Source: a virus. Taken from it: a stretch of 64,000 bases of DNA. The notes below the pieces were generated by a model. It made no database searches. It was not told where the DNA came from and was given only the letters and a program-made list of their open reading frames with translations. Positions within the stretch are counted from its first letter, which is position 1, and each line of letters begins with the position of its first letter. The stretch spans positions 49,847 to 113,846 of the IMG/VR virus record IMGVR_UViG_3300035438_000194; one strand, 5' to 3'. Below, in pieces: positions 13,001-36,560 of the stretch. A program made the position numbers and the translations under genes.

Positions 13001-16000
13001 TACCCTAGAAGAAATTGAACCGGGGTCAGAAAAGTATAAAGGTATCATGGCACTGATTGATCAGTATGATGAAATTTACTTTGAAGAAACTGGTGAGCGT
13101 CTTATAAGAACAGAGTTACCAGAGAACATGCAAAGACTTGCAGGTTACAACACTGAGACTAAAGAAGCTATTTACCAAGAGTTCACACCTAGAGATCCTA
13201 AAGATAAGAGAAGTATTGCAGCTCTTGCAAAGGAGTTTGGGTTTAACAACATAGACACTGAGTCACCTGTTGAGGCCCTGGAGGTACTTAAAGCAATTGC
13301 TAGAAGCAAACATGGTTATGTACCAAGAGCGCAAAAGAAACTGGCTCAAGCCTTACTAGGATTTATTAAACCAGGTACATTAATCAGATTTAAGAATGGT
13401 CACCGTACAAATAGTACGTTTGATCCTGTTAATGGTATTATTGTAGATGCTAACTTCAGTGCAGAAGGTTTTCAAAATGCTAACATTCCTATTGAGTTCT
13501 CTATCTTAAATGCAGTAATGCAACAAGTAGCTTCTGAGTCATTAGCTGACCCGGACTTCAATAACAGAATAACAGCTCTTAGAGAACAGTTCAATGAGTC
13601 ATTAGAAGCAAACGATAGAAACTACTTTAAGTATGCTTTAGCAAATAACCAACAGTTTGTTGCAGAGGCGATGACCAATGCAGACTTACAAGCTGAGATG
13701 GGTAAGAAGCCATTTGAGGGAGAGATGACTGAACAAACCGCAGAGGCTAAGACCATGTGGGAATCATTCATGGACTCCATCTATGAGGCACTTGAGAAGA
13801 TATTTGGTGTTACAAGAGGTAAGAGCCTTTACCAAGAGGCTATGAATGTTATCACAAACAAGCTTGCTCAACCTGGCGTTGCTGGTCCTTCAGCTGTACC
13901 TAGTGTATTAGCTGAAGATGAGGTCATTGAAGATGATATTGATATTGAGGAAGATGAACCAGAGTTGGATCAAATGCTTCGTGCTAAATTCAACGAGATA
14001 GTAAATGCAATGCCTGCTGCAGACAAAGTAGGTATGAACTTTGAAACTTGGAAGCAAAGTGACTCAGTAGCTATCAGCATGCGTAATAAGTATAATGCTG
14101 ATAAGATTAAGAAAAAAACTGGCACCCCTGGTGGAGCTACAGTAATGACTGAGGCTGAGCAAGTTAGACGTTTAACATCTTTAGGTTATCAGATCTCTGA
14201 GATCAATAACATGAAGAAGGACGGTAAACAGGATGATATTGATAACATTATTAAGAATGATATCAAGAAGAAGATTCAGATACGTAGCGTTGACTCTAAG
14301 GGTAATGTAACTTACATCGAAGCAGACTATGATCAACCTATAACTGCACGACCTAATGTTATAGCAGCAATCAACAAAGCTGTTAAGACACTTGAAGACG
14401 CTAATGTTGGTTTGACAGCTGATGAAGAAAACTATATACAACGCGTACAAGTTGGTGTTGATGAAAAAACAGGAGAACCTATCTACAAGCAAAAAGAAGG
14501 TACACCTCTTTATGAGCGTACTTCACATGTTGTAAAAGATAAGTTTGAAGGTACTAATAAAGAAGCAACTGACCGTGGTAACATTATTGACTTACTACTA
14601 AGAGACTTCCTTAAAGGGGACATCTTAGATATCAGACAGTTTAGAAATGCTTACGCTAAATATCAAAAGAAGCATAGCTCTGCAGTATTTAGTGAAGAGA
14701 TGTTGAATGACTTATTTGATAAATTTAGAAGTGTGCAAATACTTTTAAAGTCAAACGGACTTACAGTAATCTCTAACTTACCGGGTCTTTATGGTAAAAT
14801 TGGTAAGAGATACACAGCAGGTGCAGTTGACCTTATTGCATATGATGCTGCTGGTAGAGTTTATATCATTGACCTTAAGACATCAACACAAGACAGAAGA
14901 GCTCAGTATAAACTAGAGACTGATCTTGAGAATGAATTTGGTGCTAGATACTCTGAAATCAAAGAAGCTATCAAAGGTGGACGTGAAAAGAAGAAGTCTT
15001 TAAGCGAGACCCTCAACAGTACTCGTATATCTGAGGAGGATAAGAAGAGAATCATGAAGGTGGCTGAAGCAAACCCTACTGAAGATGCTATCTACTTTTT
15101 CAAGGACCAGGATGCTAAGCAACAAAATGCCTATAAAGAGTTACTAAGACAATCAACAGGTTTGGTTGCTGATATGTTAACTATCTTCCCATTACTTACT
15201 TCTAAGACCGGTAAGATCTTTACTAAGGTAGAGTTCCAGAAAGAAGGAAAGGATCACTCTATGAGAGTAGAGACTTATGACATCCATGATAAACTTGGAT
15301 TGGTAAATGAGGCTACTTACCCAGAGAACCCTATTGACAGAGCTGCTAAAGAAACTCCTATAACCAAAGAACCTGCTGAGGAACCTATTACTGAAGTACC
15401 TAACTTTTTTACTTTAGGAGATGTTAACTACTCTGAGAATGGAATTGACACTAAGTATTATATTGCCGTTCCTCAAAGTTCAACCCTATCTTGGGATGAA
15501 ATAGTAGAAAAAAATAGCATAACCCGAGAAGAATATATTAAGGCTTATGCTGAAAGTTTAAAAGAAAAAGAAGCTATAAGAAAAAGAGAAGAGAAAGAAA
15601 GAGAGGTTGCTGAAGAAAAAAGAAAAAAAGAAGAAGCTTATTGGGGAAATAATACTAACAACCTAGTAGGTAAAACACTTCAATTTGATGTTGGAGAAAA
15701 TGAGAAAGGAGAGCCCTTTAGAAAAAGTGTTAAGATAGAAAAAGTTCACTTACTAGAGAATGGTAATTACAGAATCATTGCATCAAGCAGGGGTGGAAGA
15801 TTATATGATGTAACTACTGATGAAAATGGAAATATACTTTCTTATACGAGAGATGGTAAAACATTTAGTGGTAACATCACAGATGAAATATTTTTTCCAT
15901 CTGACTCTTTTGTAAAACCGCTAGAAAGTACTGTAGAAGAACAACCTACTCAAGAGAATGAGGGGCCTGTGTTTGAAGTTTTTGGTAATGATGTGGTTTA

Positions 16001-18817: not shown

Positions 18818-21800
18818 ATGATTTGTAAACCTGACGGAACATACGAGATAGAACAATCTGATATTGATAAAGTTAATAAATGGGTATATAAGCTTCTTAG
18901 CACTAGAGCTACTAGCGGTACCCGTACTTTTGACCTTAATGCTTTTGTTAAGTATGTATATACCAGAAGTTTAGAAAAAACAAATGATGCTCAAAAGGCA
19001 TTAACAATTGCTAGACAGGTTCCAATTGCTATTGATCTTGTTATCAGCGCTGATCCTGATCTTAGAAAAGGATTAGCTGCTTTACAAGGTTACTCAAGAG
19101 ATGCAGTTGATGCTATGGGAGATTCTTTCTTAGAGTCTATGACTGCTGTATCTGATTTGGTTAATACAGACCCTACTAAGAAGGATCTTGCTAATACCTT
19201 AGCAGCAACTGCAAATGTAGAATTGTTACAACCTGTAACTCCTACAATACAAGCAGGTGCATTAGAGACTGGTAGAGAACTTGTAAGTGATTTGCCTTAT
19301 ACACCTCTCAGTACAACTGGTAATGAAGATATACCAGGTAGAGAATGGTACTATGGTTTTATAAAGAATATTAGCAATCAAGATCTTGGATTAAGTAATA
19401 CTGGTACTGCATCATACTTTGGTGTTAAAGATGGTATCCGCATTGCTATGGTGCTTGGTAGTCAGATTCCTGTAGATCAGTTATACTTGGATGTACAGAA
19501 TCAAACTGACATTGAAGACATAAAAAAGAATCAGTTGTTTACTGTAGTTACAGATAATGCTGGAAACTTTGTATACTTTAATGAGAACTATGAGGTAACT
19601 GATGCTGAGAATGGTAAACTAGTATACTTCCCTACAAGAACTATCCCTTCTATGAAGGTAGTAGATGGACGCAAGGTGTTTAATCTAGGTGAGCAATCTG
19701 ACCGTACTGTACAAAGTATTAAGGATAAAGTGCGTAAAATAATGGCTGACGCTCCTTTGCTTAAAGAGAAAGATGCAAGAGAGCAAGTAGAAGTAGAGTT
19801 CCAAGGAGCCTACAGTCTACTTAGTGATATAGCAGATCATTTACAAAATAATCCTTCAGATAAGGTATTACTAAACTTGACTGGTATCAATAAGGGTACA
19901 TTGCGCTATGACCAAGATACGGTTACTCCGCTATCCTCTATCAAGAACTTAGGCGCACTGAATCTTAGGATTAGAACAACTGGCGTTAGTTCTGAAGGAA
20001 CCAAACAAGAATTTGAAACAAGAAGATATCTTGCTATTGATGGTGTATCAGACAAGATAGGATTCTCTATGAACAGCTTTAGTACAGCAATGGCCTCTAA
20101 AGTAGCTGACTTATTAGTCAATGATGTTTATACAGAAGATGGCACTCGTTTGTCTACAGATGACAAATACAAGATGATAAGAACCTTTGTACCATTGGGT
20201 ACTACAGGTCTTACTATAGTTACGGCAAATAATGAAATCAAGATTGGTGGTAATACAGTAGACTTATCAGATAAAGCTGCAGCAAAAGCAGCTATAGTAG
20301 AATTCCTTACAAGAACCATTAAAGTAAATGATTCAAAAGGGAACGAGATAGAGATTAAAAACCAACTGCGATTTGACGGAAAGACTTACGAGGCTTCTAA
20401 CGGAGTCATTGATGATTTTACTATTACACCAGCATCAGATGGAACATACACAGTTGCTAGCAATTTAGTTGACTACAAGACTTGGCTTAAGGATAATGCT
20501 TATATCAAAATACAACTTGACTCTAACGGTAACGTTACACAAGTTAATGGTTACTTTGAATTCAATGCAAGTCCTGAGACAAGAAAAACTATAGCAAGTA
20601 GACAAGTTGAGCAGATGGCTGTACCTAAGAAAGGTGGAGATCTTTCTTTGAACGGTTTGACTGCACCAACAGTTGAGGATAAAGAAAACGCATTAGCTAA
20701 AATTAGAGAAAGAGCAAAGGGTAGAAACAACAAACCTTTGTTCTCAATGCGTCATGATTCATTAGCTGCAAACAAGGCTCAGATTAGACGAGGTAAGAAG
20801 TGGTTTGATACTACTGAAATTAAGTTTAAAGATGCAGACGGAAAAGTTGTAACTAAGAAACTATCAGAGATTGTACCTTATGAGGTTATGTTTAACGTGA
20901 TCAACAGCAATGGTGATATACGTGCTACATGGACCCGTAATGGTATTACCCTTTTCAATGGATCAGACTATACAGACCTTTACCATGAAGCATGGCATGG
21001 CTTTACTCAGTTGTTCTTAACTGCTGATCAGAAGACTGCTTTGTATAATGAGGTAAAGAGTCTTAAAGAAGACATTAAGTACTATGATCATAAGGCTGGA
21101 GAATGGAAGACCATGAACTCCAAAGACTTAGATTTTAGCGACAGAAATCATATTATATATGCTGAAGAATATCTAGCAGACAAGTTTAGAAAATATTCAA
21201 TGGACAGATCTGCACCAAGTGCTAAAGTTAAGTCCATCTTCAGAAAGATATGGGATGCTATTAAAGCATTGTTTAGCAGAAGCACTAAAGAATCTGCGGC
21301 TAACCCATATAACAACACATTAATAAATCAAGCATTTGACCAGTTATATACTGGTAACTTAGTTGACTATACATTTGATCAAGCTAACATTCAGTTTGGT
21401 CAGTTAAACTATGGTATAACAGCCATTGATAAAGATTTAAACGGTATAGAAGGTCTTAGTGTTGAAGACTCTCTTGCTATATCAGAAGGTATAAACCACT
21501 ACATAGCTGAGTATATTGATATGGCGGTAGCTGGTCTAGTATACGGTGATGCTAATCCTGCATATAGTTCTTTGATCCTAACGGACGCTGAGTACAAAAA
21601 GGAAGCATTATTTTACGCTAAGGATATGTTACAGGTTCAGCTTGATAAACTTTTAGCTGAGTATGGTACAAAGGTTTCCTACGAGAAGCAAATAGCTGAG
21701 AGACAAATCAAAACATTAACATTTGCTATTGATCAGTTTGGTGATCTAGATGATTTACGTAATAATAAGAAAGGTACATTAGCATTCTTTAATAAGAAGA

Positions 21801-24800
21801 CCGGTTACTTAGATCTTACTACGTATAAGACTGATGATAATACAGATGATGCTACTGAGGAGGATGACGATGATTCTGGAAGACCAACAAAGTCAAAGGA
21901 CAGAACTGGTATGTATGCTGGTAACGGTACGGAACTTTCTGGTCTTGAGAGAATGGACTCAATATTAAAGTTTGCATTCTCAAACATAACAGAGATAGGA
22001 CCTGATGGGATAAAGCGTAATCAGATGGGTCTTCCTGTAATGGCTTCTTCAAAAACAATCTTCAATATGGTTTCTTCCCTTACGGAGAATCTTAATGATA
22101 GAGAGGAAATGTATAGAGCCATTTGGAATAAGTCAGAGGAGAAAGAAAGAAATGGTGAGCCTACACCTATGGCTCAAATGCTCAAGCAGTTCCTAAGCAA
22201 AGTAGGAGAGCCTAAGGATGCTACAAGCGGTATTGCGCAATTGTTTTGGAATAAAGTATTCCATGGTTTACGTACAGACCGTTTAACGAGCATACAAGTA
22301 AACATTAATAAGACAAAATACGGTCACGAAGTTATAGTTGGTGAGACTGACTCTTCTGATAAAGCTATCTTAAGAGGTTGGCAAGATGCCTTTGTGTTTA
22401 ATAATAAGTCTGATTATCTTATTGTAGATCCTAAGACTAATGAGAAGTACTTAGACCTGAAAGCATTGAATGCAAAGTATGGTAATATTGGTCCGGGTCA
22501 GCCTATTGAAAGTATTGACCAAATCAATCCTTATCAATTCTTTAAAGATTTTGGTATTCTCATAACACCAACTAATAAGAATCTTAAGGCTATAAGAGAT
22601 CAAGATATTATAAGAACTCTACTTAGATTTAGGCTTGCCCCTTTAATGAGGATTCCTGATTTAAAAGTAACTAGCTATAATAGTCTTTTTATGGAGAACC
22701 ATCCTTACATTGATGCTAAGGGTGAGAAGTCGGTATTACAAGAACAAGGTGGTGTAATGAATAAATTACTAGCACTTGAGTCAAAAGCCAATCCAAAGTA
22801 TTCTGACTACATGCGTTTGTTTGGTGCTGATGCAAGAAGTGAGAGATCAAATCCAAGCGGTCCAGGTAATACACTCATTGCTTTAAATAAAGCAGGTAAC
22901 TTCAATAATATAATATCAAGACCTGAGCTTAGTCAATATAACCCTAAGAAGAATCCTGCAGTTAAGACATCTGTTATTTTTAATAAGATGTTCCCTAGTT
23001 TAGGGGCAAGAGATCAAAGATACAGTCTTGACTACCAAGCAATGTTAGGTACTCAGTATATTGATAAGAGAGCGGGTATTGATACATTAGTAACTAGTCT
23101 AGCATCAGCAGAATCAGATGAGCAAGTAGCATATCTACGTGACTTCTTCTCTTTCTCATTGCATGGTGCAGCTGAAGCGTTCAAGCATGCTGATAAGAAC
23201 ATGGCTTATATCGTACAGCTACTTGGTCCACAAATGTTCTATATACCCATAGCAGACTTTGCAAAAGGTACTGGAGAAGGTAACACAGGAAAACAAGCTG
23301 CAAACAAAATTATAACTGGTTACATAGCTGCTGAGTTAGAAAGAATCAAGAAGGTACTAGCTAGTAAAGAACTTACATCTGGTGAGAAAGCATCAGACAT
23401 TATATTATATACAGATTCAGAGGCAACTGTAAAAGATGAGGATGGTTTAATCAGAGAAGTAAAGTATAAAACACTAGCTGATGTTGGTGTTGAGTTTACC
23501 GTGTTTGATGACATCCTATCAGATGATTTAAAGGCTAGACTTATAAATGATAAGAGTATTCAGACAGTTGAAGACTTCCTAAAGTTATTATCTGGTGATA
23601 AAGCCTTAGAACAAAGCATTCACAGAGAGTTAAATACTTACTTTGCTAAGCTGGTAAAAGAAGATAGAGACCAACTTGAGTCTTTTGAGTTCTTTAAAGG
23701 CGCTAATAAAGCTAAGTCACTTAGTACTATTAAAAACAGATCGTTTAAAAATAGTAGTCTTAGTACTGATGAAATCTTTGATGCATCAGTGTTACACTAT
23801 GTGTATGCATCATTCATCCACAAGATGGAGATGAGCACCTTGTTCTATGGGGATGCTGTTATGTTCCAGCATGATAAGGATGAGCATATGAAAAGGATTC
23901 CTACATTCTTTGCTACAGGAAAGATTCCAGTGTTTGATGACACTATGGAAAACTGGTTGTTATCATCAGCAGGAGGTTACTATAAATCTGAGTTCTTTAA
24001 AAACTCTGGGTTGACTCAACCTACTAGTAATCAATTAGTTACAAGACAATTGAATACTGCTATCCTTGAGGATGCCATAGAAAGTATATCAAAAGAAGCC
24101 TTTGACCAAATGGTGGAGGCGTACCTAAAAAATAATCCAGGAGCTACAGAAGCTGAAGCTAAAGCTAAGTACAAGTCATATAGGAATATGAAGTCAGCGG
24201 ATGCTCAAGGATGGATTTCCTTTGATGCTTACCGTGCTTTAGAAATACGCTTAGACAACTGGAGCCCTGCTAAAGAAGTAGTATACCAAGAGGTGTTAAA
24301 AGGAGAGATCAGTGACCCTGAAATACTTGAGACATTCTTCCCTGTTAAGAAGATGCAGTATGCTGGACCTATGGGTACTGAGAACTTTGCGGCTAATGCT
24401 GTACACAAGTACTCATTGATGCCTTTGATTCCTACTATTATTAAAGATACAGAGCTCGAGAAACTACACAATAAGATGGTTTCTCAGAACATTGCTTACT
24501 CTGTAATGCACAGTGGTTCTAAGGTTGCTAGTATAGGTAATGGTAATAAGTTAAGTAAGTTCTACACTGAACCGAACGGTAACCGCACATTGGCATTTAC
24601 TGCTCCTGATTACCAGTTCTCTTCTAGTGTTATCTACTTAGATTACTTTAAAGAGCAGCTCGTAACACATGATACTGCAAAGGGTAAAGTAAAGTTCCCA
24701 ACACAGAAACGTGCATTGGTTACATCTGGCCTTGATGAGTTTGGTGTACCTACAGACTTTGAAGTAGGTAGCACTGATGATGAAAGATTAACTGCTTGGA

Positions 24801-27800
24801 ATGCGCTGCCTGATGAGAAAGCTAGACTAAAAGCATCTAAAGCATATACCCTTAAGAGAAACTATCAAAAGGCATTTAAAGAACTATTTGATACAGCTAA
24901 AGACAAGTTGAAGATGGAACTTGGTTACAAGGATCCTAAATCAACTTCAAAAACAGAAGGTCTTAACTTAGAGAAACTTATGGCTTTTGTAGAGGAGCAA
25001 CTCCTTAACAGAGAGACCTTGTCTGAGTATGAGTTAGACTTTTTGCAAATGAGCCCTAGCGGTCAGTTGATTTATCCGCAAGACTTTGGTTCAGATCCAT
25101 CACAGATTGAAAAACTTATATCATCATTGGTCAATAAGAGAATTACTGACCAGATGTCTAGAGGTGAGTCTTTCATCCAAGTGTCTAGTGTTGGTTTTAG
25201 AAAAGCTGATTTGGCAGCAGATTCTAGTTTATTATTCTACCGTATAGGACCTGATGGTAAAACGTTACCAATGCAGGTTAAGATACCATTGATGGGTGAC
25301 TTTAAAAACCTATTGAACCATGTGGACAATGATGGTAAAAAGATTGGTACCCTGGCTCGTTTAAATGAGTTGATCAAGGATGAGAAGTGGATGAATGAGA
25401 ACCGTGAAATGCTTACTATGGGCGGTGACCGTATTCCAATTCAGGGTCACAACTCTATGGAGGTTATGGAAGTAGCTGAGTTCTTTGATCCTGCTGGTGG
25501 TAACATGATGGTATTACCATTAGAGATTGTTGCTAAGACCGGTGGTGACTTTGACATTGATAAGCTTATCTGCTTGATCCCTGTTATCAAAAACAACATG
25601 GGTGTAGTAGAACTATCTAAACCCACTAAGACCCGTAAGGTACTTAAGACTATTGTTAAGGAGAAGAGTGACTTGTATAATGAACTTAAGGCTTTAAGAA
25701 AACAATATATTAAAGAAGAACTTACACCAGAGTTTAGAGAAGAAATTAGTAAACTTGAAGATGAGCAAAGAGCAGCTCAGCAAGAGTTTAATGAAAATTA
25801 TATTAATGATTACTATGTAGGCGGATCATTAGATAAGTATATGAACCGTATCAACAGTGCTCAACAAACTATTGATGCTATATATGATCAACTCTTTGAA
25901 GACAGGAAAGAAGTATTCCAAGGTGAATTTGATCAGTATATTGATGAGGCTCAACCTATACTTAATAAGTTACGTGAGTTAAACAGACAAGAAGATACAT
26001 TCAGTCCCGATGCCTATCAGAATAATCTGATGCAAGCAATGAATGATATATTACTAAGAGGTGAAAACTTTACTAACCTTACACTTCCTAATGATACAGA
26101 GACCTATACAGCTAAGGGTGGTATTGTTGATGAATTTACAAGTGTAAACAGACCTTATCAAAGAAGTAATAATAAGACTAATAACAGAAGAAAGAAAATG
26201 TCTCCTACCCGTATCATGGAGAATCGTTACAACAATGTTAAAGCATTTGCAATGAGTGCGGGTAAGAGCGGTGTAAGTTTGGGTGCTAAGACTAACAAGA
26301 TCTTTATAAAATATAAAGAGGTTGGTTTGTACTTTGAACCTACTTATACAGCTATTAAAGGAAACAAGCAGTACCCTATTAAGCAAAGATTACTAGTAGA
26401 TCATAAGACTGTTTTAGTTAATGGTAAACGAGCAATCTCTATGGGGCATGGTAAGGATGTGAATGGTAAAGATATTTCAGATCAGATCTCTCAGTTGATG
26501 AATGGTTACTTAGACGTAGCTAAAGAAGACTGGGTATTTGATATCAATGCTGTAAAAGAATTAGAACCTGAGTTCTTATTATTGTTACAGGCGGGTGTTG
26601 GTCCTAGAATGGCAACAGCTTTAATATCACAACCTTTAGTTAAGAAGTATGTAGAAGCTATCCGTAAGAGAAGTAATGCATTCTCATTAGCTGTTAGTGA
26701 TAAAGAAACTTCTTTAAGCTTTGCTAAGTATGAAGCCTTGTTAGAAATATTGGACAAAAACATGCCTGATATATTCAACTATGCTGATGCACCTGTAAAT
26801 CAGGAAACTGGAAATATTATAACTCCATCAAATGAAAAGTTATTGTTTGATGCGCAAAGGTTTTTAGGTAATCGCGGAAACTTTAATATTGATGATCTTA
26901 TAGCTAATGCTAAGAAGGGTCCTGATTCTGGAGTCACTGGATATGATATAGAGGCATTTGCTCACTTCATGGAGATCATGGATCTTACTAAAGGAGACAA
27001 AGAACTTAAGCAAAGCATAGATATTGACACTAAGAAGCAATTGACTGCGTTAGATGCGACTAAGAAAATTAATGCGCTTAAAGACCTATCTGGTAGATTC
27101 CCTAAGAGTAAGATTAAAAGTCTTCTGGATGACACATATTTATCTAACTTTAAGACTCAGGGTCTTCTGCTTGAAGCTATTTCAAAAGTGTTACCATTAC
27201 GAGGTTTAAAATCTTTAAATGACTTTGCATACGATCTTAGTAAGAATAAAAAGTTTGATGATCAGAAAGCAAGAGAGAACTATGAAAAGAACTTGATTGC
27301 TGACTTTCCTTCTTACATTGCAGCTAATGCTAGACCACGTGTAACTAGTAATGATGCAAGTTATAGAGGTGTTGAAATTGAACAAACTATACCAATCAAT
27401 AAGCAAACATTACTTAAGTTTGGAGCTATCTATATGGATGGTGCTCTTCAAGTAGACCAGACTCAGATTGACATTGACTTTGATAACAGAGCTTATACTA
27501 AAGATGGTTATGGAGACGGTCTTCTTGCTAAACTACCACCTACCGTATTCTCAGAATATGATAAAGGTAAAAAGACTGCTAGAAACTTATACAGAGCATT
27601 TGTATTTGAAAGAGAGATAGCACGTGCAGCATTCCCTTATACTGAGATAGAAGGCACTGATGATCAGTTTGAGTTATTTAGAGCAGAGTTTCAAATGTAT
27701 CAAGTAATGCGTATGAACACCCCTGGTGGTGCAAAGCTTGACCTAGTGGATCAGTATGAAGAGTTTATCAGAAACAAAGCATTATATAATGCAGGAATTG

Positions 27801-30800
27801 ATGCTGGTAGATTTATGTCTATGCCTAGCATGGGTATCTTTAGTATGTATGATACTTTCTCAGCTATACTTAACCAGGCAAATATTCAAGGTGTAAATCT
27901 AAAAGAACAGTTCCCTGTATTAGAAAGCCTTAGACAAACTGAAGTAGAAGGTAAGAAGTTTAACTTTATTACTTTAGCTAGAAAGGTTAAAGATGTAGAT
28001 GATCGTACATCATTTACAGCACAGTTGCTTAGCTTGATGAATCCTAATGTCCGTAAGGTTGGTAATGAAGGTTTCAATCTTGCTATCAGTTCTTTCTTTG
28101 CTAAGTTCCCAGAGATGGCATTTGCCCAAGCTGGTAACAACAGTGCAAGTGGGTTATACATTGGTTCAATCGTAGACGCTAAGTCTATAGCAGTTGCCCA
28201 AGCGGACAACTTAAATGAGTACATTGAAGCCCTTAAGGATCCTGAAACAGCTAAAAACATCTTAAATGACTACGCTAGAAAGTTTGAGCAAAAAGCTCCT
28301 TACAAAAACAAAGCAGCTTATTTTAACTATAACAGTAACAAGGATATCACTGATTATATTCCTGAGGCGCTACCAGAAGATGCATTATCAATTGCAGAAT
28401 CAGAAGTAAAGAAAGAGCCACACTGGAGAAAGGATGAGGCTATGGCCAATGCTTCAACAAAGGCAATTGCTAAAGCTACACAGCCAAAAGATGTTACTTA
28501 TAGAAGTTCAACCAAAGCTTATCTAGAAGCCCTTGGCGGAGCATCTACAGACTTTACAAGTTCTGATGCTGTATGGATATTTGGAGCAGGTGCTTGGAGT
28601 GCTACAGCAAAGAATATCAAAGAAGACTTTGATAATTACTATGTACCTATGATCAATAGAGCCTTAGAATCAGGTGTCACTACCTTCAATATAGGTACAG
28701 CATCTGGTATTGATACTATGGCAACAGACTACTTAAAGAGTAAAGGCTTTACTGTAGAGTCACAGGGTGAGTGGAATAAACTTACTGGTGGACCGGTAAC
28801 AGCTGTTGAAACAGCTAGAACCATCTATGATAAAATTAATAAAGATCAAACAACGCAGTCAGAAAATGTAGTATTACCTAAAGATTTAGAAGACAATAAA
28901 ATATATTCAGGTAAGGAATTCTGGAATAAAATTGTACCAGAAGCGAGGGATATGTTTGATGATAAGGTAAATCCAAAAACAGGTCAGACAAGACCAATGA
29001 TTGTTGCGTATAGAGGTAGTCATAAAAAAACGTTTTTGCAGAACTACAAAGATGGCCTTACTGTAGGTAATCCTTTTGATTGGCAAGTTGAAACAGGCAC
29101 TGGGGATGAGAAAGGTATAAAGTCTACTAAACGATTTATACATTGGATGATTACCGGAGATAACATGGGGACAGCTGCAGCTACTCCAGAGTACAGACAA
29201 GCTATCATAGATGATATTAAGTCAGGTAAGATAAAAGGCAGTCCTATTCTTTACTATGCAGAGAAGAACTATGCTACTCACGCAACAGCTTTAGACTATC
29301 TGATCAATAAGCATGACTGGGATGCTCAAGCTCCCGGTGCTCGTAAAACTTATACTGGGAAAATAACTAGTTTGCAACCTAATCAAATATTTGTATTTGG
29401 TTCCAATGAAGGAAGTTCTAAAGGAGGTAAACCTACACATGGATCAGGTTCTGCTAAAGATGCTAAAGACAAATTTGGAGCTATTCAAGGTCAAAGCAGA
29501 GGAGCTCAAGGACAGTCTTATGCAATTGTAACTAAGAAGTTCTACGATGTAAAAAAGTCTAGCACTCCTCAAGAAATCATAGAAGAGATCAAAGGTTTAT
29601 ATGCATATGCTGAACAAAACTCTGATAAAGATTTCTTAGTATCTGACTACTCTGAGAGTAACCTTAATGGTTATACCGGGCAAGAGATGGCAGATATGTT
29701 TAATGCTGCTGGATCTATACCTTCTAACATTGTGTTTAATCAAAACTTTGATAAGCTATTACCTAGTACTCAAGCTCCTAGAGCTACTGTAAAAGGACCC
29801 GGTCCAGAGACTAAGATGAATATTTATGCCGGTACAGGAGAGAATGCTGAATTAAGTAACTTTGCTAATAGACCTTTTTTCCCTACAACTAATGGATTGG
29901 CACAAGCTAGATTTAATAATGTAGAAAGTGCATATCAAGCAGCTAAGATTCTATTCTATACAGATAAAAGTGATAAGGCTACACTTGAATATAATGCATC
30001 TCTATATAACCAACTTAAAAATACCAATGGTTCTCAAGCTAAATCTATAGGTAAAAATATTAGATCTTTAAACATTCAAGATTGGGATGCTAATTCTTCT
30101 AGAATAATGAAGGAACTGTTAAAACAGTCCTTTGAACAAAATCCAGATGCTCTTGCTAAACTTCTTGCTACAGGTAATGCTACTCTTACACATACACAAG
30201 ATAGAGGTAAGTGGGCTACAGAGTTTCCAAGATTGCTTATGGAGGTAAGAGAAGAGCTAAGTCCTTCTCAACCACAAGCAGCAGCTGGACCAACTGTACA
30301 AGCTGCCCAAGCTGCACCAGGTCTTATCATTGACATAAGAGGTCCTAAGGAACTAGTTGATTATGAGACTGGTGATTTGATACCTGTAGCTAAAGTATAC
30401 AAGCAGACTCAGTTCATTACAAAAAATGGAGACGGAGTGGAGATTGCTTATACTCTTCCTGAACAACTTGCTAAACAAATAATGGATGAGAATCCAAACA
30501 ATGTATTTGTATTTGATTGGTTCCGTCCTCACAGTACTGGTAAAGAAAACACTGCTGCAAGAAACAATACTAGACAAGCTTGGAGATCAGGTTTAGCAAC
30601 TGGACAAAGTTTTGGTATCACTACTAGAACCTTTGAAGGAAAAACACCAAGTGATGTACAGTTTGAAGGTGTTAAAAAAGTTATTGATGAGCAGATTGAA
30701 CAACTTGTACAACTCCGTGACTCAGGTAAGATCATTACCTTCCCTTCAGATGGTATAGGTCAGAACTTTAAAGGCTCAGGTGCTGATCGAATCTTTGTAT

Positions 30801-31009
30801 ATTTGTCTAAGAAGCTTCTTGAGAATTTTGGTTACAGAAATCCAGCGTTTGATAACATAAGCTTAGTACTTGGACCTTTAGAAGTAACAGGTACAGACTA
30901 TACGCAAGACTTCTATAAGAAGATGGCGGATGCTGAGTCTGGAGAAAAGGCTCAGACAGTTACAGACAATGAAGTTAGAGAACATATTAAAACGTGTAAA
31001 ATAAAGTAA
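18818..31009 (+). CDS. Giant virion RNA polymerase fused to a zincin and a C-terminal ADP-ribose/nucleotide domain array
   Basis: A 4063-aa protein. An intact zincin motif H723-E-A-W-H727 is followed by AEEYLADKF (782-790) as third-ligand region. The RNA polymerase core is marked by TGGD2244-F-D-I-D2248, the metal-binding loop known from the crAss-like phage phi14:2 gp66 and related to YonO. A coiled coil (~2270-2330) follows. The tail contains, in order: a SLOG-like domain (~3238-3325, IFGAGAW and TASGIDTMA with S3296-G-I-D3299); a DUF4326-like domain (~3378-3505, VGNPF and a late THATALDYL); a macro/A1S_2505-like domain (~3515-3630, IFVFGSN and GQSYAIVTK); a NADAR domain (~3667-3812, ELSNFA, E3703 in VESAYQA, LLMEVREEL); and a second diverged copy of the macro-like domain (~3885-4030, VFVFDWF and GQSFGITT). 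phi14:2 gp66 is about half this length, so the tail is an addition. Polymerase call firm; domain array good, exact functions inferred. Confidence 0.9.
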   Translation: MICKPDGTYEIEQSDIDKVNKWVYKLLSTRATSGTRTFDLNAFVKYVYTRSLEKTNDAQKALTIARQVPIAIDLVISADPDLRKGLAALQGYSRDAVDAMGDSFLESMTAVSDLVNTDPTKKDLANTLAATANVELLQPVTPTIQAGALETGRELVSDLPYTPLSTTGNEDIPGREWYYGFIKNISNQDLGLSNTGTASYFGVKDGIRIAMVLGSQIPVDQLYLDVQNQTDIEDIKKNQLFTVVTDNAGNFVYFNENYEVTDAENGKLVYFPTRTIPSMKVVDGRKVFNLGEQSDRTVQSIKDKVRKIMADAPLLKEKDAREQVEVEFQGAYSLLSDIADHLQNNPSDKVLLNLTGINKGTLRYDQDTVTPLSSIKNLGALNLRIRTTGVSSEGTKQEFETRRYLAIDGVSDKIGFSMNSFSTAMASKVADLLVNDVYTEDGTRLSTDDKYKMIRTFVPLGTTGLTIVTANNEIKIGGNTVDLSDKAAAKAAIVEFLTRTIKVNDSKGNEIEIKNQLRFDGKTYEASNGVIDDFTITPASDGTYTVASNLVDYKTWLKDNAYIKIQLDSNGNVTQVNGYFEFNASPETRKTIASRQVEQMAVPKKGGDLSLNGLTAPTVEDKENALAKIRERAKGRNNKPLFSMRHDSLAANKAQIRRGKKWFDTTEIKFKDADGKVVTKKLSEIVPYEVMFNVINSNGDIRATWTRNGITLFNGSDYTDLYHEAWHGFTQLFLTADQKTALYNEVKSLKEDIKYYDHKAGEWKTMNSKDLDFSDRNHIIYAEEYLADKFRKYSMDRSAPSAKVKSIFRKIWDAIKALFSRSTKESAANPYNNTLINQAFDQLYTGNLVDYTFDQANIQFGQLNYGITAIDKDLNGIEGLSVEDSLAISEGINHYIAEYIDMAVAGLVYGDANPAYSSLILTDAEYKKEALFYAKDMLQVQLDKLLAEYGTKVSYEKQIAERQIKTLTFAIDQFGDLDDLRNNKKGTLAFFNKKTGYLDLTTYKTDDNTDDATEEDDDDSGRPTKSKDRTGMYAGNGTELSGLERMDSILKFAFSNITEIGPDGIKRNQMGLPVMASSKTIFNMVSSLTENLNDREEMYRAIWNKSEEKERNGEPTPMAQMLKQFLSKVGEPKDATSGIAQLFWNKVFHGLRTDRLTSIQVNINKTKYGHEVIVGETDSSDKAILRGWQDAFVFNNKSDYLIVDPKTNEKYLDLKALNAKYGNIGPGQPIESIDQINPYQFFKDFGILITPTNKNLKAIRDQDIIRTLLRFRLAPLMRIPDLKVTSYNSLFMENHPYIDAKGEKSVLQEQGGVMNKLLALESKANPKYSDYMRLFGADARSERSNPSGPGNTLIALNKAGNFNNIISRPELSQYNPKKNPAVKTSVIFNKMFPSLGARDQRYSLDYQAMLGTQYIDKRAGIDTLVTSLASAESDEQVAYLRDFFSFSLHGAAEAFKHADKNMAYIVQLLGPQMFYIPIADFAKGTGEGNTGKQAANKIITGYIAAELERIKKVLASKELTSGEKASDIILYTDSEATVKDEDGLIREVKYKTLADVGVEFTVFDDILSDDLKARLINDKSIQTVEDFLKLLSGDKALEQSIHRELNTYFAKLVKEDRDQLESFEFFKGANKAKSLSTIKNRSFKNSSLSTDEIFDASVLHYVYASFIHKMEMSTLFYGDAVMFQHDKDEHMKRIPTFFATGKIPVFDDTMENWLLSSAGGYYKSEFFKNSGLTQPTSNQLVTRQLNTAILEDAIESISKEAFDQMVEAYLKNNPGATEAEAKAKYKSYRNMKSADAQGWISFDAYRALEIRLDNWSPAKEVVYQEVLKGEISDPEILETFFPVKKMQYAGPMGTENFAANAVHKYSLMPLIPTIIKDTELEKLHNKMVSQNIAYSVMHSGSKVASIGNGNKLSKFYTEPNGNRTLAFTAPDYQFSSSVIYLDYFKEQLVTHDTAKGKVKFPTQKRALVTSGLDEFGVPTDFEVGSTDDERLTAWNALPDEKARLKASKAYTLKRNYQKAFKELFDTAKDKLKMELGYKDPKSTSKTEGLNLEKLMAFVEEQLLNRETLSEYELDFLQMSPSGQLIYPQDFGSDPSQIEKLISSLVNKRITDQMSRGESFIQVSSVGFRKADLAADSSLLFYRIGPDGKTLPMQVKIPLMGDFKNLLNHVDNDGKKIGTLARLNELIKDEKWMNENREMLTMGGDRIPIQGHNSMEVMEVAEFFDPAGGNMMVLPLEIVAKTGGDFDIDKLICLIPVIKNNMGVVELSKPTKTRKVLKTIVKEKSDLYNELKALRKQYIKEELTPEFREEISKLEDEQRAAQQEFNENYINDYYVGGSLDKYMNRINSAQQTIDAIYDQLFEDRKEVFQGEFDQYIDEAQPILNKLRELNRQEDTFSPDAYQNNLMQAMNDILLRGENFTNLTLPNDTETYTAKGGIVDEFTSVNRPYQRSNNKTNNRRKKMSPTRIMENRYNNVKAFAMSAGKSGVSLGAKTNKIFIKYKEVGLYFEPTYTAIKGNKQYPIKQRLLVDHKTVLVNGKRAISMGHGKDVNGKDISDQISQLMNGYLDVAKEDWVFDINAVKELEPEFLLLLQAGVGPRMATALISQPLVKKYVEAIRKRSNAFSLAVSDKETSLSFAKYEALLEILDKNMPDIFNYADAPVNQETGNIITPSNEKLLFDAQRFLGNRGNFNIDDLIANAKKGPDSGVTGYDIEAFAHFMEIMDLTKGDKELKQSIDIDTKKQLTALDATKKINALKDLSGRFPKSKIKSLLDDTYLSNFKTQGLLLEAISKVLPLRGLKSLNDFAYDLSKNKKFDDQKARENYEKNLIADFPSYIAANARPRVTSNDASYRGVEIEQTIPINKQTLLKFGAIYMDGALQVDQTQIDIDFDNRAYTKDGYGDGLLAKLPPTVFSEYDKGKKTARNLYRAFVFEREIARAAFPYTEIEGTDDQFELFRAEFQMYQVMRMNTPGGAKLDLVDQYEEFIRNKALYNAGIDAGRFMSMPSMGIFSMYDTFSAILNQANIQGVNLKEQFPVLESLRQTEVEGKKFNFITLARKVKDVDDRTSFTAQLLSLMNPNVRKVGNEGFNLAISSFFAKFPEMAFAQAGNNSASGLYIGSIVDAKSIAVAQADNLNEYIEALKDPETAKNILNDYARKFEQKAPYKNKAAYFNYNSNKDITDYIPEALPEDALSIAESEVKKEPHWRKDEAMANASTKAIAKATQPKDVTYRSSTKAYLEALGGASTDFTSSDAVWIFGAGAWSATAKNIKEDFDNYYVPMINRALESGVTTFNIGTASGIDTMATDYLKSKGFTVESQGEWNKLTGGPVTAVETARTIYDKINKDQTTQSENVVLPKDLEDNKIYSGKEFWNKIVPEARDMFDDKVNPKTGQTRPMIVAYRGSHKKTFLQNYKDGLTVGNPFDWQVETGTGDEKGIKSTKRFIHWMITGDNMGTAAATPEYRQAIIDDIKSGKIKGSPILYYAEKNYATHATALDYLINKHDWDAQAPGARKTYTGKITSLQPNQIFVFGSNEGSSKGGKPTHGSGSAKDAKDKFGAIQGQSRGAQGQSYAIVTKKFYDVKKSSTPQEIIEEIKGLYAYAEQNSDKDFLVSDYSESNLNGYTGQEMADMFNAAGSIPSNIVFNQNFDKLLPSTQAPRATVKGPGPETKMNIYAGTGENAELSNFANRPFFPTTNGLAQARFNNVESAYQAAKILFYTDKSDKATLEYNASLYNQLKNTNGSQAKSIGKNIRSLNIQDWDANSSRIMKELLKQSFEQNPDALAKLLATGNATLTHTQDRGKWATEFPRLLMEVREELSPSQPQAAAGPTVQAAQAAPGLIIDIRGPKELVDYETGDLIPVAKVYKQTQFITKNGDGVEIAYTLPEQLAKQIMDENPNNVFVFDWFRPHSTGKENTAARNNTRQAWRSGLATGQSFGITTRTFEGKTPSDVQFEGVKKVIDEQIEQLVQLRDSGKIITFPSDGIGQNFKGSGADRIFVYLSKKLLENFGYRNPAFDNISLVLGPLEVTGTDYTQDFYKKMADAESGEKAQTVTDNEVREHIKTCKIK

Positions 31010-31010
31010 A

Positions 31011-34000
31011 ATGGCAAATAGTTGTGCATTTGGTAAGGATTGGGATGAGCTCGTAGAAGCGGTAGGTTTATTCCAAGCAAGTAAGGATTATATTGAGAAC
31101 AATGGAGAGGTTCGTACCCCTGATGAAGTAATAGCTAAGCTAGAAGCTAGAGGGGAATGGGCTGAAGAATCTACTCAGGACTTTACCAGACCAATGCTAA
31201 GAGGAACTGAGATGGACATGTTAGCTGAAATGGCTAACACTATCCCTGGTTTCTCTACTATATTTAATCCAATACACCTATCAAAGGCTGCTACAGACAT
31301 GCGTAAAGGAAACTCTACGCTAGACTTTACTATAGGCAACCTAAGTTCACGTCTTGGTATACCATACCAGATGGTTGATGAGGTAGAAGCACAAACTATA
31401 TTGGATAACTCAGGTACTCCTTATACAGGAGAAGCTGGTTTCTATGTAGGTGGTGTTGTATACTTTATCAAAGACAAGGTAAATACAGAGGTGGCATTCC
31501 ACGAGTTTGCTCACCCATTTGTAAGAGCTATTGCAAAAGAGAACAACGTGTTGTTTGAAAAGCTGCATGCAGACTTACTTCTAACACCTGAAGGCAGACT
31601 CTTAGAGAAACTAATGAGCAACCTTCACCCAGAATTAGAAGCGGGTGCAGAACTATACAAAGAGGAAATGTTGGTACGAGCTTTAACAAAAGCATCTGTT
31701 GACAAGAAGAATAATAAGAAACCATCTTCTGGCTTTGTTAAGTTCCTTAAAGACCTATTGTATGCAATCAAACAGGTTTTTAGAAAGTATGTAGGTAAAT
31801 CAGTTGCAATCTCTGAGCTTACACAAGACACAACTCTAGATGAGTTAGCTGATATTTATACAGAAGCTAATATAAACTTTGATATAGAGTTAGTTAACCA
31901 GAAGGATGTTGTTGCATTTATTAGAGAGACCCGTACTCAAGTTGATGATATAGTTAATATACTTAATACAGATGAGGGTGCTCAAGTTATCAAGAAGGGT
32001 CTAGATAACATCAATCAAGTAGTTAATGAGCATACTGACCGTCTTATAAAGAATAAGAACTTAGATGAAATGTTAGCTATTCTAGAGACAGGATTTGACC
32101 AAGCTGACTTACAAATTATACGTTCTAATATAACTCAGTACAGTAATCTTATAAATGCAAAGTTTACTACTCTTGCAGAAGAGAACAATCGTGTTCAACA
32201 GCAATCAGCAGCTTTTGTAAATACTGTTTTCCAGATCAAAGCAATGGCTGATAAGATGATTCTGCATATGCAGGAGTTATCTAAAAGAGAAACTGATCCT
32301 AGTAAGGTAAAGAAGTTCTACTACTATGAGCAATTGACTAATGACTGGAAGAGAACAATGGCTCAGATCCGTATTGACATGAGTAATGCTGGTATCCTAG
32401 AAGGGCCAATGCTTGATGTTATAGGATCTATTGAGACTAAGTTACAAACAGCTGATACAATTGCAGGACGTGTGCATCTTGAGGGCTCATCTGAATTACT
32501 TGAGAGTGTACTAGAACCACTATCTAAAGAAGTAGATAGATACTATAAAGAAATTATTGAAGAGTTAGAAAAGAAAGGTGCTCCTGATAGAATCTTGAAC
32601 CGTTACAAAGCGGAGTATGATAGCGCTAAACTTGACAAAGCTACACTTAAGAGCTGGTTATCAGGTGAGCAGGGAGACACAAACGTAATCAGTGCATGGA
32701 TGGAGTCATTCATGAACATACAAGACCCGGTTATATTTGGTCTTGCATCTTACGTAAACAACAATATGATGGATGTTATGACTACTGTACAACAGAAGTA
32801 TAACAGACAGTCACAAGATATTAAAGAACTTCTTGATTCAGTTGGTTACAATCCTAATAACCCAAAAGGGATATTAGATCTTGTAGGTTATACTGAGAAA
32901 GAAGGTACATATGGTAAGGACGGTAAGTTTGTAGAGAAAGAAAGAAAAGCTTTCATTCACCACGTTAAAGGGTATGACATAGAGATCACTCGTAAGAATG
33001 ATCAGATTAAACAAGCTGAGCTAGAGTTCAAGAAGACTGGAGACAGTACTGACCTAGACAGATTATATATTGAACGTGAAAACTTACTTAAAGATTTTCA
33101 CAGGGAATATTCAGAGGAAGTTTATGCTAAGGATGATCTTCTTAGCAAAGATGAGATAGGTAAAAAGGCCTATCTTGAACGCTTTAAGATTCTTAGTAAG
33201 ATACAGAACTTAAATGCTACACTTGAAAGTGCGGCAGACAGACATGATCCAGACTACCAGATGTCATTAGCTACATACTGGCAAGAGTATAAGCAATTAT
33301 ATTCTTTATCATATGCTGATGGTACTCAAAAGAAAGGTGATGATCTTGATGTTTCTGTAAGACTTAGAGAACATAGAGAAGCAACTAGAAAGTTCTATGA
33401 GTGGGTACCAAGAAAAGGTATGTTCCAAGGGGCTCTGAAGGCTTATGAGCAACAGATCCTTGATACTAATCCTAGTATTAAATACGGTGGCCCTGAGTTT
33501 AACAGACTACGTGAAGAGTGGCTTAACAATAATACAGTTGTTGCAATTAAACCAGAGTTCTTTAGAGACCGTCAAGTTATCTTAGATAGAATTAATGAAC
33601 TGAAGGCTAAGTTACCACAGTCTGTACAAGACCAGCTAAAGTTAGATGAGATCCTTAAGGAGATGAATGACCAAATCTCTGCTTACAGAGATGACAGCGG
33701 TCAGCCTGAAGGTACTGCAATGAGTGATACAAAACTTGCTCGATTGAAGGAACTACAAGAGCAGTTTGAATTGTATAAAGATGACCTTCTAACAGTACAA
33801 GGTGTAACTAAAGCTGATATTGCGTTTAAGAAACAGATTGATGCAGCTATAGTTGAGTATACACTTAGAGGTAAAGGAGAACATCCGTTAAGTGATCCTG
33901 ATGTAGCACTACGCTATGCTGATATTATCAATGATATGAATGACTTTGGTTTATCTGAAGAAGATGCAGCAGAGTTAACAGAGCTATATCAGAAGTTGTT

Positions 34001-36560
34001 TAGCATCTCAGATAAAGAAGCTACAGATGACTATATAAATGTTGTCAATGCTTTAATGCAACCAGGTAATGACCCAGATGATTCAATTGACGGTTCTTAT
34101 TTGTATGATACATTTAACTTAACATCATTTGATAAGAATACTATTGATGAAGTATTGACTGAAGAAGTAGCTAATACTTTAATGGGTCAGAGTTCTGCAT
34201 TTAAGAAGTGGTTCTTAGCTAATCATATCAAGACCGTGTTTGTAACAAACAGAGGTGACGAGATTGTAAAGTATAAAAGAACAGCAGCTTGGAGCGTAAC
34301 CAGACCGGTTGATGTAAAGTACTATGAGACTACAGATATCCTAGATGAAGTTGGTAATGTAGTTGAAACTATACAGCGTAAACCAAAGATTGATTACTTC
34401 AGAAGAAGGGTTAAAGAGGAGTATAGAACCAAGCGTGTTACAATGCTTGAAGCTTTGGAACAAGGAGACTTAAGCTTAGCTAATGTTGATCACAATGGTA
34501 ACTGGTTACCTAAAGCAGATAGTAAGTACCGTAATGAAGAGTACTACAATCTTAGAAACAGAGGTGGTAATGAGTTTAAGCTATTGACTACACTGCTTAC
34601 GTATCACTTGGAAAATCAACAAGGTCTTAATAGAAACTCTAGACTGGGTGTATTCATTCCAAGATACCGTAAAGAAAATAGAGAACTTTTAGTAGAAAGA
34701 GGAGGAGCTCAGAGTAAGTTATCAAGCTGGGCTAGCAATGTTAAAGCTAGCTTTAGTAGAGCTAAAGATGACATGGAAGATGGTTACAATCCAGAGATTG
34801 ACACAACCTTCATTAACTTAGACTTGTTTGATAACGAGATTACAGGTATTCCTATTTCTGGTAAGTATGACTTAGAACTAGATGAGACTTCAAATGATGT
34901 TCTTATGGGTATAATGCGTTATATGCAGAGTGCTGAAAGACACAAGAAGTTAATTGAAATCAGTCCTGAAGTGCGTGCAATTCAGAAAGTTGTTAATGGT
35001 TCTGAAGGAGCTATTAAAGATATGACTAAGGCTAGTAAGTCTGACTTTATTGAACGTAACTTAATGCGTTATGCAACTAGAAAAGGAACATCAGTAAGAG
35101 CCCAGACTGTTAATGCTTTTATAGAAAGAGAGTTTGAGGGTAAGACACAAGCTGGTGCATTAGCAGATCTAACAGGTCTTAATAAGACAGTAAACAATTT
35201 ACTAGGTCTTTCTTCTATGGCCTTCTTTGCATTGGATATACCATCAGCATTGAAGAACTCATTAGGAGCAAGATTCCAGTCCATCATACACGCAGCTGGT
35301 GGTAAAGACATCAGTGCTATGAGTTTAGGTAAAGGTACCCTATGGGGTAATATTACTTCAGCAGAGGTAAGCTTCCAGATTTACAGATATGGACCTAAGA
35401 GTCTTAATGTACAGTTGTATGAAGTGTTTGACCCGGACCAAAAGTTTGCGGACAAAGAAGGTAAGTTTGCAGAAGGTATGTCTAGAACATTCTCTAAGGA
35501 CGTTATGTCTGGTAGCTGGTTAACCAATACCAGAGAATGGACTCAGATGAATGCATCCCTAGGTTTATTTGGTGGGCTTATGTATCACCAAATGGTAGAT
35601 CAAACTATTGATGGCGTAACTAAACAGATTCCATACATAGAAGCATGGGAAGTTAAAGACGGTCAACTTACAGTTAAGGAAGGTATTGATAAGGATTGGG
35701 ATCTTGGGGGTAAGAACTTTAAGATGATGCGCGCTAAGGTACAAGGTGTAAACCGTAAACTTAACGGAGCATACTCCAAGTTTGATAAGACACAAGGTGA
35801 AAGATACTTACTAGTAAGATTAATATCATTCTTAAAGCGTCACTTTACAAGAATGTTCTTGAACAGATGGGGCTACAGAGGAAACTTCCTTGAGCCAAAG
35901 GCTAGATGGGATGTAGGTTCAAATGAAATGGAGATAGGTTACTATACACAATCAATAGCCTCTATTGTAAATGGTTTTAAGTCTGGAGGTAGAGACTTCA
36001 AGTATATGACCCAGAGAGAGAAGGTAGCATTCAAGAAGTTTGCTACTGAATTAGTTCTTGTATTAGCTGCAGGTATGCTTGTTAAACTTATCTTTAGCTA
36101 TGATGAGGATGACGAGGATCGTTTTGAGAAGTTGAGACAGAAGTCAGGACCGTTACCAATGCCTTGGGCAACTGAATCACCATACAAGTTTAACTTTAGT
36201 GGGTATATGTCTAACCAAGCGCTGTTCTTATCTAAGGCTACACTTAATGAGAACTCAGCATTCTTACCGTTTCCTAGTATGGGACTAGATGACTATAGAG
36301 CAATCTTAGACTTTAACTCTATTGCGTTTGGTAATACTCTATCTAACTACGTTAAGATAGTAGATAACTTAGCAGGTATGATAACAGGTGATGAAGGTGC
36401 CTACTATAAGAAAGATGTAGGTCCTTATAGCTGGCAGGATGAAGGTTCTGCTAAAGTATGGAACTATCTAGGTAAGAGTATTGGTTTATCCGGTTCTCAA
36501 GTTGACCCAGCATTACGTCTTAAGAATTTAGAATCAATACAAAACAGATTAAAAGGTTAA
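31011..36560 (+). CDS. Giant virion protein with active-type zincin metalloprotease motif
   Basis: An 1849-aa protein starting one base after the polymerase stop. Near the N-terminus it has H164-E-F-A-H168 in a hydrophobic setting (EVAFHEFAHPFV), with KEEML (~220) as the likely third zinc ligand. This arrangement matches zincin-like domains of large polyvalent phage proteins. Most of the rest is helical and highly charged (residues ~290-1100), probably long coiled coils. A hydrophobic stretch, LVLVLAAGMLVKLIF, near residue 1680 is followed by a DEDDED acidic patch and could be a membrane segment. The protease may mature virion proteins or act on the host after ejection; which of these applies cannot be told from sequence. 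Confidence 0.8.
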   Translation: MANSCAFGKDWDELVEAVGLFQASKDYIENNGEVRTPDEVIAKLEARGEWAEESTQDFTRPMLRGTEMDMLAEMANTIPGFSTIFNPIHLSKAATDMRKGNSTLDFTIGNLSSRLGIPYQMVDEVEAQTILDNSGTPYTGEAGFYVGGVVYFIKDKVNTEVAFHEFAHPFVRAIAKENNVLFEKLHADLLLTPEGRLLEKLMSNLHPELEAGAELYKEEMLVRALTKASVDKKNNKKPSSGFVKFLKDLLYAIKQVFRKYVGKSVAISELTQDTTLDELADIYTEANINFDIELVNQKDVVAFIRETRTQVDDIVNILNTDEGAQVIKKGLDNINQVVNEHTDRLIKNKNLDEMLAILETGFDQADLQIIRSNITQYSNLINAKFTTLAEENNRVQQQSAAFVNTVFQIKAMADKMILHMQELSKRETDPSKVKKFYYYEQLTNDWKRTMAQIRIDMSNAGILEGPMLDVIGSIETKLQTADTIAGRVHLEGSSELLESVLEPLSKEVDRYYKEIIEELEKKGAPDRILNRYKAEYDSAKLDKATLKSWLSGEQGDTNVISAWMESFMNIQDPVIFGLASYVNNNMMDVMTTVQQKYNRQSQDIKELLDSVGYNPNNPKGILDLVGYTEKEGTYGKDGKFVEKERKAFIHHVKGYDIEITRKNDQIKQAELEFKKTGDSTDLDRLYIERENLLKDFHREYSEEVYAKDDLLSKDEIGKKAYLERFKILSKIQNLNATLESAADRHDPDYQMSLATYWQEYKQLYSLSYADGTQKKGDDLDVSVRLREHREATRKFYEWVPRKGMFQGALKAYEQQILDTNPSIKYGGPEFNRLREEWLNNNTVVAIKPEFFRDRQVILDRINELKAKLPQSVQDQLKLDEILKEMNDQISAYRDDSGQPEGTAMSDTKLARLKELQEQFELYKDDLLTVQGVTKADIAFKKQIDAAIVEYTLRGKGEHPLSDPDVALRYADIINDMNDFGLSEEDAAELTELYQKLFSISDKEATDDYINVVNALMQPGNDPDDSIDGSYLYDTFNLTSFDKNTIDEVLTEEVANTLMGQSSAFKKWFLANHIKTVFVTNRGDEIVKYKRTAAWSVTRPVDVKYYETTDILDEVGNVVETIQRKPKIDYFRRRVKEEYRTKRVTMLEALEQGDLSLANVDHNGNWLPKADSKYRNEEYYNLRNRGGNEFKLLTTLLTYHLENQQGLNRNSRLGVFIPRYRKENRELLVERGGAQSKLSSWASNVKASFSRAKDDMEDGYNPEIDTTFINLDLFDNEITGIPISGKYDLELDETSNDVLMGIMRYMQSAERHKKLIEISPEVRAIQKVVNGSEGAIKDMTKASKSDFIERNLMRYATRKGTSVRAQTVNAFIEREFEGKTQAGALADLTGLNKTVNNLLGLSSMAFFALDIPSALKNSLGARFQSIIHAAGGKDISAMSLGKGTLWGNITSAEVSFQIYRYGPKSLNVQLYEVFDPDQKFADKEGKFAEGMSRTFSKDVMSGSWLTNTREWTQMNASLGLFGGLMYHQMVDQTIDGVTKQIPYIEAWEVKDGQLTVKEGIDKDWDLGGKNFKMMRAKVQGVNRKLNGAYSKFDKTQGERYLLVRLISFLKRHFTRMFLNRWGYRGNFLEPKARWDVGSNEMEIGYYTQSIASIVNGFKSGGRDFKYMTQREKVAFKKFATELVLVLAAGMLVKLIFSYDEDDEDRFEKLRQKSGPLPMPWATESPYKFNFSGYMSNQALFLSKATLNENSAFLPFPSMGLDDYRAILDFNSIAFGNTLSNYVKIVDNLAGMITGDEGAYYKKDVGPYSWQDEGSAKVWNYLGKSIGLSGSQVDPALRLKNLESIQNRLKG

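Follow-up and report, generated by a model that had tools for sequence, protein, structure and literature searches.

Among phages of the human gut, the crAss-like group ranks with the most abundant, and its giant RNA polymerases are mostly unannotated. The closest published systems are the polyvalent proteins encoded by phages and by conjugative elements, giant injected chains that join unrelated enzymatic domains and include N4-like virion RNA polymerases (vRNAPs) with a zincin and an ART domain (PMC5512222), and the SLOG/DUF4326/Macro/NADAR fusions of phages and giant viruses, for which a counter-defence role has been predicted (PMC9503650, PMC7824862). Here we describe a 64,000-nucleotide stretch (the window) comprising positions 49,847 to 113,846 of the 113,846-base IMG/VR virus record IMGVR_UViG_3300035438_000194, which encodes a crAss-like vRNAP chain of 4063 amino acids (aa) with a multi-domain tail. 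We consider it probable on balance that this polymerase is delivered with the virion and carries an exchangeable effector cassette, whose role is probably counter-defence. The first-pass annotation of the window held such a fusion to be undescribed, which does not apply to fusions of these domains or to N4-type polymerases with ART and zincin domains; the literature searched, which excluded most subscription journals, yielded no crAss-like polymerase with this set in a domain-swapping slot.

The vRNAP gene (18818..31009, forward strand, as are all features below unless noted) is a single open reading frame (ORF) with zero internal stops, and homologues of its product include phi14:2 g066 ('Catalytic RNA polymerase subunit') as well as 80 IMG/VR chains. 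Residues 2244-2248 (25547..25561) read DFDID, the DxDxD type of catalytic motif described for crAss-like RNA polymerases (PMC7886860), and tblastn matched phi14:2 g066 at an E-value of 9e-16 and many Crassvirales records besides. By motif and homology, the ORF is therefore a crAss-like virion RNA polymerase. It resembles the polyvalent proteins in its presumably injected giant chain, its polymerase module, its HEXXH motif and in the ART-PolyVal domain of some members, and several disparate effector domains likewise share one chain. It differs in that the N4 enzyme is T7-like while the crAss-type polymerase is an unrelated double-psi beta-barrel enzyme, in the nature of its loads (NADAR, A1S-macro, SLOG-like, DUF4326-like, AlkB-like and SF1 helicase domains), and in the exchange of single domains between chains seen here at the DNA level.

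The boundaries of the cassette are evident from comparison of the window's polymerase chain (WIN) with related loci and contigs (L-numbers below). The core of L015 aligns to WIN residues up to 3171 and then continues straight into WIN residues 3821-4061, indicating that the four intervening domains (~3172-3820) are an insertion relative to the L015 arrangement. On this alignment, they form a cassette inserted ahead of a conserved chain end. The tail proposed by the first-pass annotation is real and lay about where it was placed, with the exception of its final member, a supposed second macro-like domain. That segment (residues 3859-4061, 30392..31000) has only weak matches to DUF7831 (E 7e-4) and A1S_2505/NF049995 (E 0.007), and its AlphaFold (AF2) model (confidence, pLDDT, 76) has no significant Foldseek match among PDB folds. 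It is present in 35 of 60 non-redundant chains, each time also at the chain end. An array of all five tail domains was accordingly rejected, and we designate residues 3859-4061 the conserved, DUF7831-related end of the vRNAP lineage, of uncertain fold. Structure modelling was split into two jobs, and a joint alignment of the tail pieces misplaces the rows of this terminal domain.

The fourth cassette module (residues 3667-3815, 29816..30262) is firmly identified by sequence and predicted structure as a NADAR domain, as first proposed. It matches Pfam PF08719 (E 7e-13, residues 3675-3796), a profile of vRNAP-linked NADARs matches Escherichia coli YbiA (5e-13) and the P. nicotianae NADAR (9e-10), and the AlphaFold model, confident for this domain, matches 8bau and 2b3w with a Foldseek probability of 1.00. 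E3703 and K3710 occupy the positions of the catalytic Glu and Lys of NADARs, and H3792 that of the last-strand residue, where a His is characteristic of the phage (gp30.3) type (PMC11125620). T4 gp30.3 shares the fold and the His replacing the Glu of YbiA (LKHS), but is a standalone 152-aa gene. Among polymerase-linked NADARs that could be resolved, the Glu was kept in 41/41, the Lys in 41/41 and the His in 42/42. This region (29807-30277) also matches the PADLOC candidate anti-phage defence model PDC-M42C (E 1.3e-5), suggesting that NADARs are employed by defending hosts as well as by phages.

The third module (residues 3509-3648, 29342..29761) belongs to the A1S_2505 family, an assignment made firm by profile NF049995 (E 6e-25, 6.3e-25 unrounded; 87.6 bits against a cut-off of 45; residues 3524-3644). 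No PDB macrodomain was matched by sequence profile. The AlphaFold model is predicted by Foldseek to be a macrodomain, with TARG1, DarG and the alphavirus macrodomain nearest (probability mostly 0.9-1.0, target TM score 0.5-0.66, E 0.007-0.3), in agreement with the original macro call. By our own reading, its YAIVTKK segment resembles the strand of TARG1 and DarG that bears the catalytic lysine.

The first two modules, originally called SLOG-like and DUF4326-like, are conserved units whose family identities are plausible but weak. The SLOG-like module (residues 3191-3312, 28388..28753) has homologues in L013, L025, L066, L074 and L130 and is modelled with moderate confidence (pLDDT ~75-80) as alternating beta/alpha; when its alignment was used to query a viral scan, a single, already known contig was returned. 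The DUF4326-like module (residues 3328-3502, 28799..29323) is kept in other vRNAP tails at 64-71% identity (71% in both L010 and L082). No family hit to either module was obtained in the window with Pfam (to E 10), PADLOC or PDB sequence profiles, nor in tblastn searches against 50,697 phage records. PF14216 (DUF4326) did not reach its gathering score, its one match being sub-threshold (E 0.017), at the right place in the homologue L128, and hence we name the second module DUF4326-like only.

The same slot is highly variable in relatives. Across 60 non-redundant chains found by polymerase similarity, the length past the catalytic motif ranges from ~880 to ~2380 aa, and the identified extra domains comprise SF1 helicase (10 chains), NADAR, SLOG-like, DUF4326-like and AlkB-like domains of the 2OG-Fe(II) oxygenase type (5 each), A1S (4), cpYpsA-SLOG and ART-PolyVal (3 each) and the kinase-like AAA_33 (2); many chains have none of these. 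The description in the first-pass annotation, an array of ADP-ribose/nucleotide-related domains, is consequently too narrow, because AlkB-like, SF1 helicase, kinase-like and ART domains occupy the slot as well. Further DUF7831 copies occur in L078 and L035, and L101 has an ASCH-like domain (E 9e-4) before its NADAR. An unnamed module of ~130 aa (L012 3491-3622, L083 3403-3534, L017 3587-3716), with 81-85% nucleotide identity across divergent polymerase tails, also looks ASCH-like, and lacks a Pfam hit in L012. The order DUF4326-A1S-NADAR recurs in the vRNAP ORFs of L133 and L134, and SLOG-like and DUF4326-like modules share a chain with NADAR in WIN, L133, L128 and L130. In some chains, SLOG-like and NADAR modules precede the catalytic motif (L025 867-988, L074 30-157, L120, L121, L141 and L143), suggesting at least one further slot. 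The presence of ART-PolyVal in the slot of other phages raises the possibility that some may deliver an ADP-ribose writer and others an eraser; a search for ART domains elsewhere in the present genome found none.

Comparison at the DNA level shows that single domains have been swapped between the polymerases of very divergent crAss-like phages. Counting stretches that are 80% or more identical in nucleotides and belong to polymerase genes with core proteins no more than 60% identical, we find 24 blocks, mostly one domain long and none in the polymerase core, in a set that is NADAR-enriched since many loci were fetched with NADAR. When only loci fetched on polymerase similarity are taken, five blocks reach 78% identity or more and every one falls in the tail, which makes up 16% of chain length; the best core block reaches 77.7%, at the catalytic motif. 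The L100 and L101 NADARs are 97.5% identical over 471 nucleotides, exactly the domain, with nothing else alignable at the DNA level and cores that are 33% identical as protein. The NADARs of L121 and L124 are 92.6% identical, with that of L121 N-terminal and that of L124 C-terminal to the catalytic motif, and the A1S domains of WIN and L017 are 86.6% identical in a block that matches the domain, versus ~67-72% in larger flanking blocks. Relative to the core, mean similarity is raised by 24 points for NADAR, 23 for A1S and 18 for DUF4326-like modules, and the conserved C-terminal domain, taken as control, is 23 points lower. The SLOG-like module is mixed, averaging 11 points below the core, yet reaching 77% versus 47% for WIN and L025. 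Exchanged copies differ with a ratio of nonsynonymous to synonymous substitution rates (dN/dS) of 0.12-0.29, indicating that they are under purifying selection. Exchange is also apparent within a genus, where L003 (A1S, C-side) and L005 (NADAR, N-side) each lack the other's insert. In Kolpuevirus, the cultured phage 'frurule' has an A1S domain near the C-terminus (vRNAP residues 1895-2031) and cr126_1 a NADAR near the N-terminus, the rest of the chains being ~85% identical in DNA.

Phage versions of these domains are typically standalone (PMC9503650), as are, in that survey, the viral versions generally outside RNA-virus polyproteins, which makes their placement in a polymerase chain unusual. 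Whole-record searches of 22 crAss-like records, including three TAG-recoded genomes read with TAG as glutamine, gave 10 A1S matches (in 9 records) and 10 NADAR matches, all in the vRNAP gene block and all but one inside the vRNAP ORF itself; the exception is a cr131_1 NADAR in the neighbouring giant ORF. No standalone NADAR or A1S copy was found in the 22 records, although very divergent standalone NADARs may be missed. The confinement to the vRNAP block and the lack of standalone copies fit selection for virion delivery.

Mass spectrometry has detected in virions the phi14:2 gp66 vRNAP chain, annotated as a virion protein in its record, and PhicrAss001 gp47, gp49 and gp50 (PMC10172136). A zincin-like metallopeptidase signature, recognised at the motif level without a Pfam hit, is formed by HEAWH (residues 723-727) and EEYLADKF (residues 783-790; together 20984..21187). 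HEXXH is present in all 52 vRNAP chains examined, ~1,500 residues ahead of the catalytic motif, and is followed in 51 of them by the E-E-x-L-A type motif of the HEXXH...EE-LAEDF signature. N4 vRNAP is among the polyvalent proteins reported to have a zincin-like peptidase signature (PMC5512222), and the signature of crAss-like chains is not mentioned in the main text of PMC7886860. Self-processing of the chain by its own zincin domain is possible.

We propose that a constant vehicle would be formed by the polymerase core together with the zincin-like and C-terminal domains, and that the slot between core and C-terminal domain, or less often one near the N-terminus, would accept single domains of ~120-180 aa swapped among crAss-like phages. 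The whole chain would be packaged, as the presence of homologous chains in virions suggests, would leave the particle together with the DNA or before it, and would perhaps be cut by its own zincin domain. With the SLOG-DUF4326-macro(A1S)-NADAR load of this phage, the likeliest task would be to let early transcription start by stripping the ADP-ribose that DarT-like toxins of the host attach to the entering DNA or RNA (NADAR at guanine, the macrodomain possibly at a different adduct), by destroying alarm molecules derived from ADP-ribose, or by both. The mix of NADAR, macro, AlkB, helicase and kinase-like domains in the slot is in keeping with the protection or repair of nucleic acid as it enters, and removal of DarT-type ADP-ribosylation would be the simplest specific proposal for this phage. 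In vitro, guanine in DNA was freed of ADP-ribose by every NADAR tested, including one of the phage gp30.3 type, the same His class (PMC11125620).

Several observations weigh against a delivered counter-defence cassette. Delivery at time zero, as first suggested by analogy with phi14:2 gp66, is supported indirectly by the presence of relatives' vRNAPs in virions, the retained NADAR residues and the location of the domains in the polymerase block; however, gp66 and PhicrAss001 gp50, which share a homologous core with DFDxD, have neither cassette nor terminal domain (no NADAR, A1S, SLOG-like, DUF4326-like or terminal-domain matches), and we therefore only infer packaging of the tail. Very divergent standalone NADARs could also have escaped the whole-record searches. 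The SLOG and DUF4326 identities are unproven in this chain, the TARG1/DarG-like lysine is absent from the A1S copies of L012 and L013, and the conservation of the NADAR Glu and Lys is partly circular, as loci were fetched with a pattern containing these two residues (the His was not part of it). Moreover, a phage NADAR active in vitro did not rescue cells from DarT1 (PMC11125620).

The main rival reading, possible though in our estimate rather unlikely, is that the cassette clears soluble alarms derived from nicotinamide adenine dinucleotide (cyclic ADP-ribose isomers, ADPr-1''-phosphate) that TIR/Thoeris-type defences produce, and leaves nucleic acid untouched. Such a role has been favoured for the phage versions in general (PMC9503650) and would suit the SLOG-like and DUF4326-like modules that accompany NADAR here and in L133, L128 and L130. 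Against it, the slot in relatives houses domains with nucleic-acid targets (AlkB-like, SF1 helicase, kinase-like), and the substrate in assays of characterised NADARs was ADP-ribosylated DNA (PMC11543638, PMC11125620). The same slot contents could instead serve housekeeping repair or remodelling of the template for transcription by helicase, AlkB, kinase and de-ADP-ribosylation activities, with no host defence targeted. Helicases, in 10 of 60 chains, outnumber every other identified load (AlkB-like domains are in five chains and kinase-like ones in two), but the patchy presence of the domains, their frequent distant single-domain swaps and the ART-PolyVal writers look more like arms-race cargo, and we regard this explanation as the less probable of the two. 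A purely structural role, as ballast, ADP-ribose-binding tethers or packaging signals devoid of catalysis, is improbable: the C-terminal region of N4 vRNAP is required for encapsidation (PMC5512222) and the lysine of the TK pair is missing from some A1S copies, but the NADAR catalytic residues are kept, and since many chains have no extra domains these are not required for packaging. An assembly or prediction artefact (a chimeric contig, or a separate gene that encodes the domains) was rejected as scarcely credible, for although the window comes from a metagenomic virus record, its frame is open, the DUF4326-A1S-NADAR order recurs in L133 and L134, and vRNAP fusions occur in the complete genomes cr50_1, cr112_1, cr116_1 and cr126_1 and in cultured Kolpuevirus 'frurule'.

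The vRNAP gene is followed by another giant gene of the transcription block (31011..36560; 1849 aa), which starts 1 nucleotide past the vRNAP stop codon, and this order is repeated in L010-L093 and in PhicrAss001 gp50/gp49. In L082, an ART-PolyVal match lies within the next giant subunit (G002:76308-76532), suggesting that other proteins of the block may carry cargo too. In L011, small separate ORFs encoding a GNAT-like protein, a GIY-YIG homing endonuclease and an ART-PolyVal domain are located between the vRNAP and the next subunit (11535-14585), and in L093 the tail is split by a frame change, with the helicase and C-terminal domain running on in a second, overlapping ORF (14187-15482). Elsewhere in the window, on the minus strand, two GIY-YIG homing endonuclease genes (48213-48944 and 51440-51859) lie amid replication genes, and the replication region also encodes a DUF2201 metallopeptidase-VWA protein (49007-50206, E 1e-16).

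More broadly, and as a tentative extension which we hold with less assurance than the reading for this phage, the injected RNA polymerase of the Crassvirales may serve generally as a platform for delivery, its polymorphic slot receiving counter-defence or repair domains that polymerase genes of very distant phages exchange singly, like the C-terminal tips of polymorphic toxins, in which case the macro and NADAR domains described here would together cover two kinds of DNA ADP-ribosylation, the products of DarT2 and DarT1, at entry. If the polymerase does carry an exchangeable anti-defence set, slot content would predict the host defences met by each phage lineage, and the slot would explain the more than 1,000-residue variation in length of these chains. 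The Kolpuevirus pair, together with a cultured phage whose chain bears an A1S domain, makes the delivery idea directly testable.
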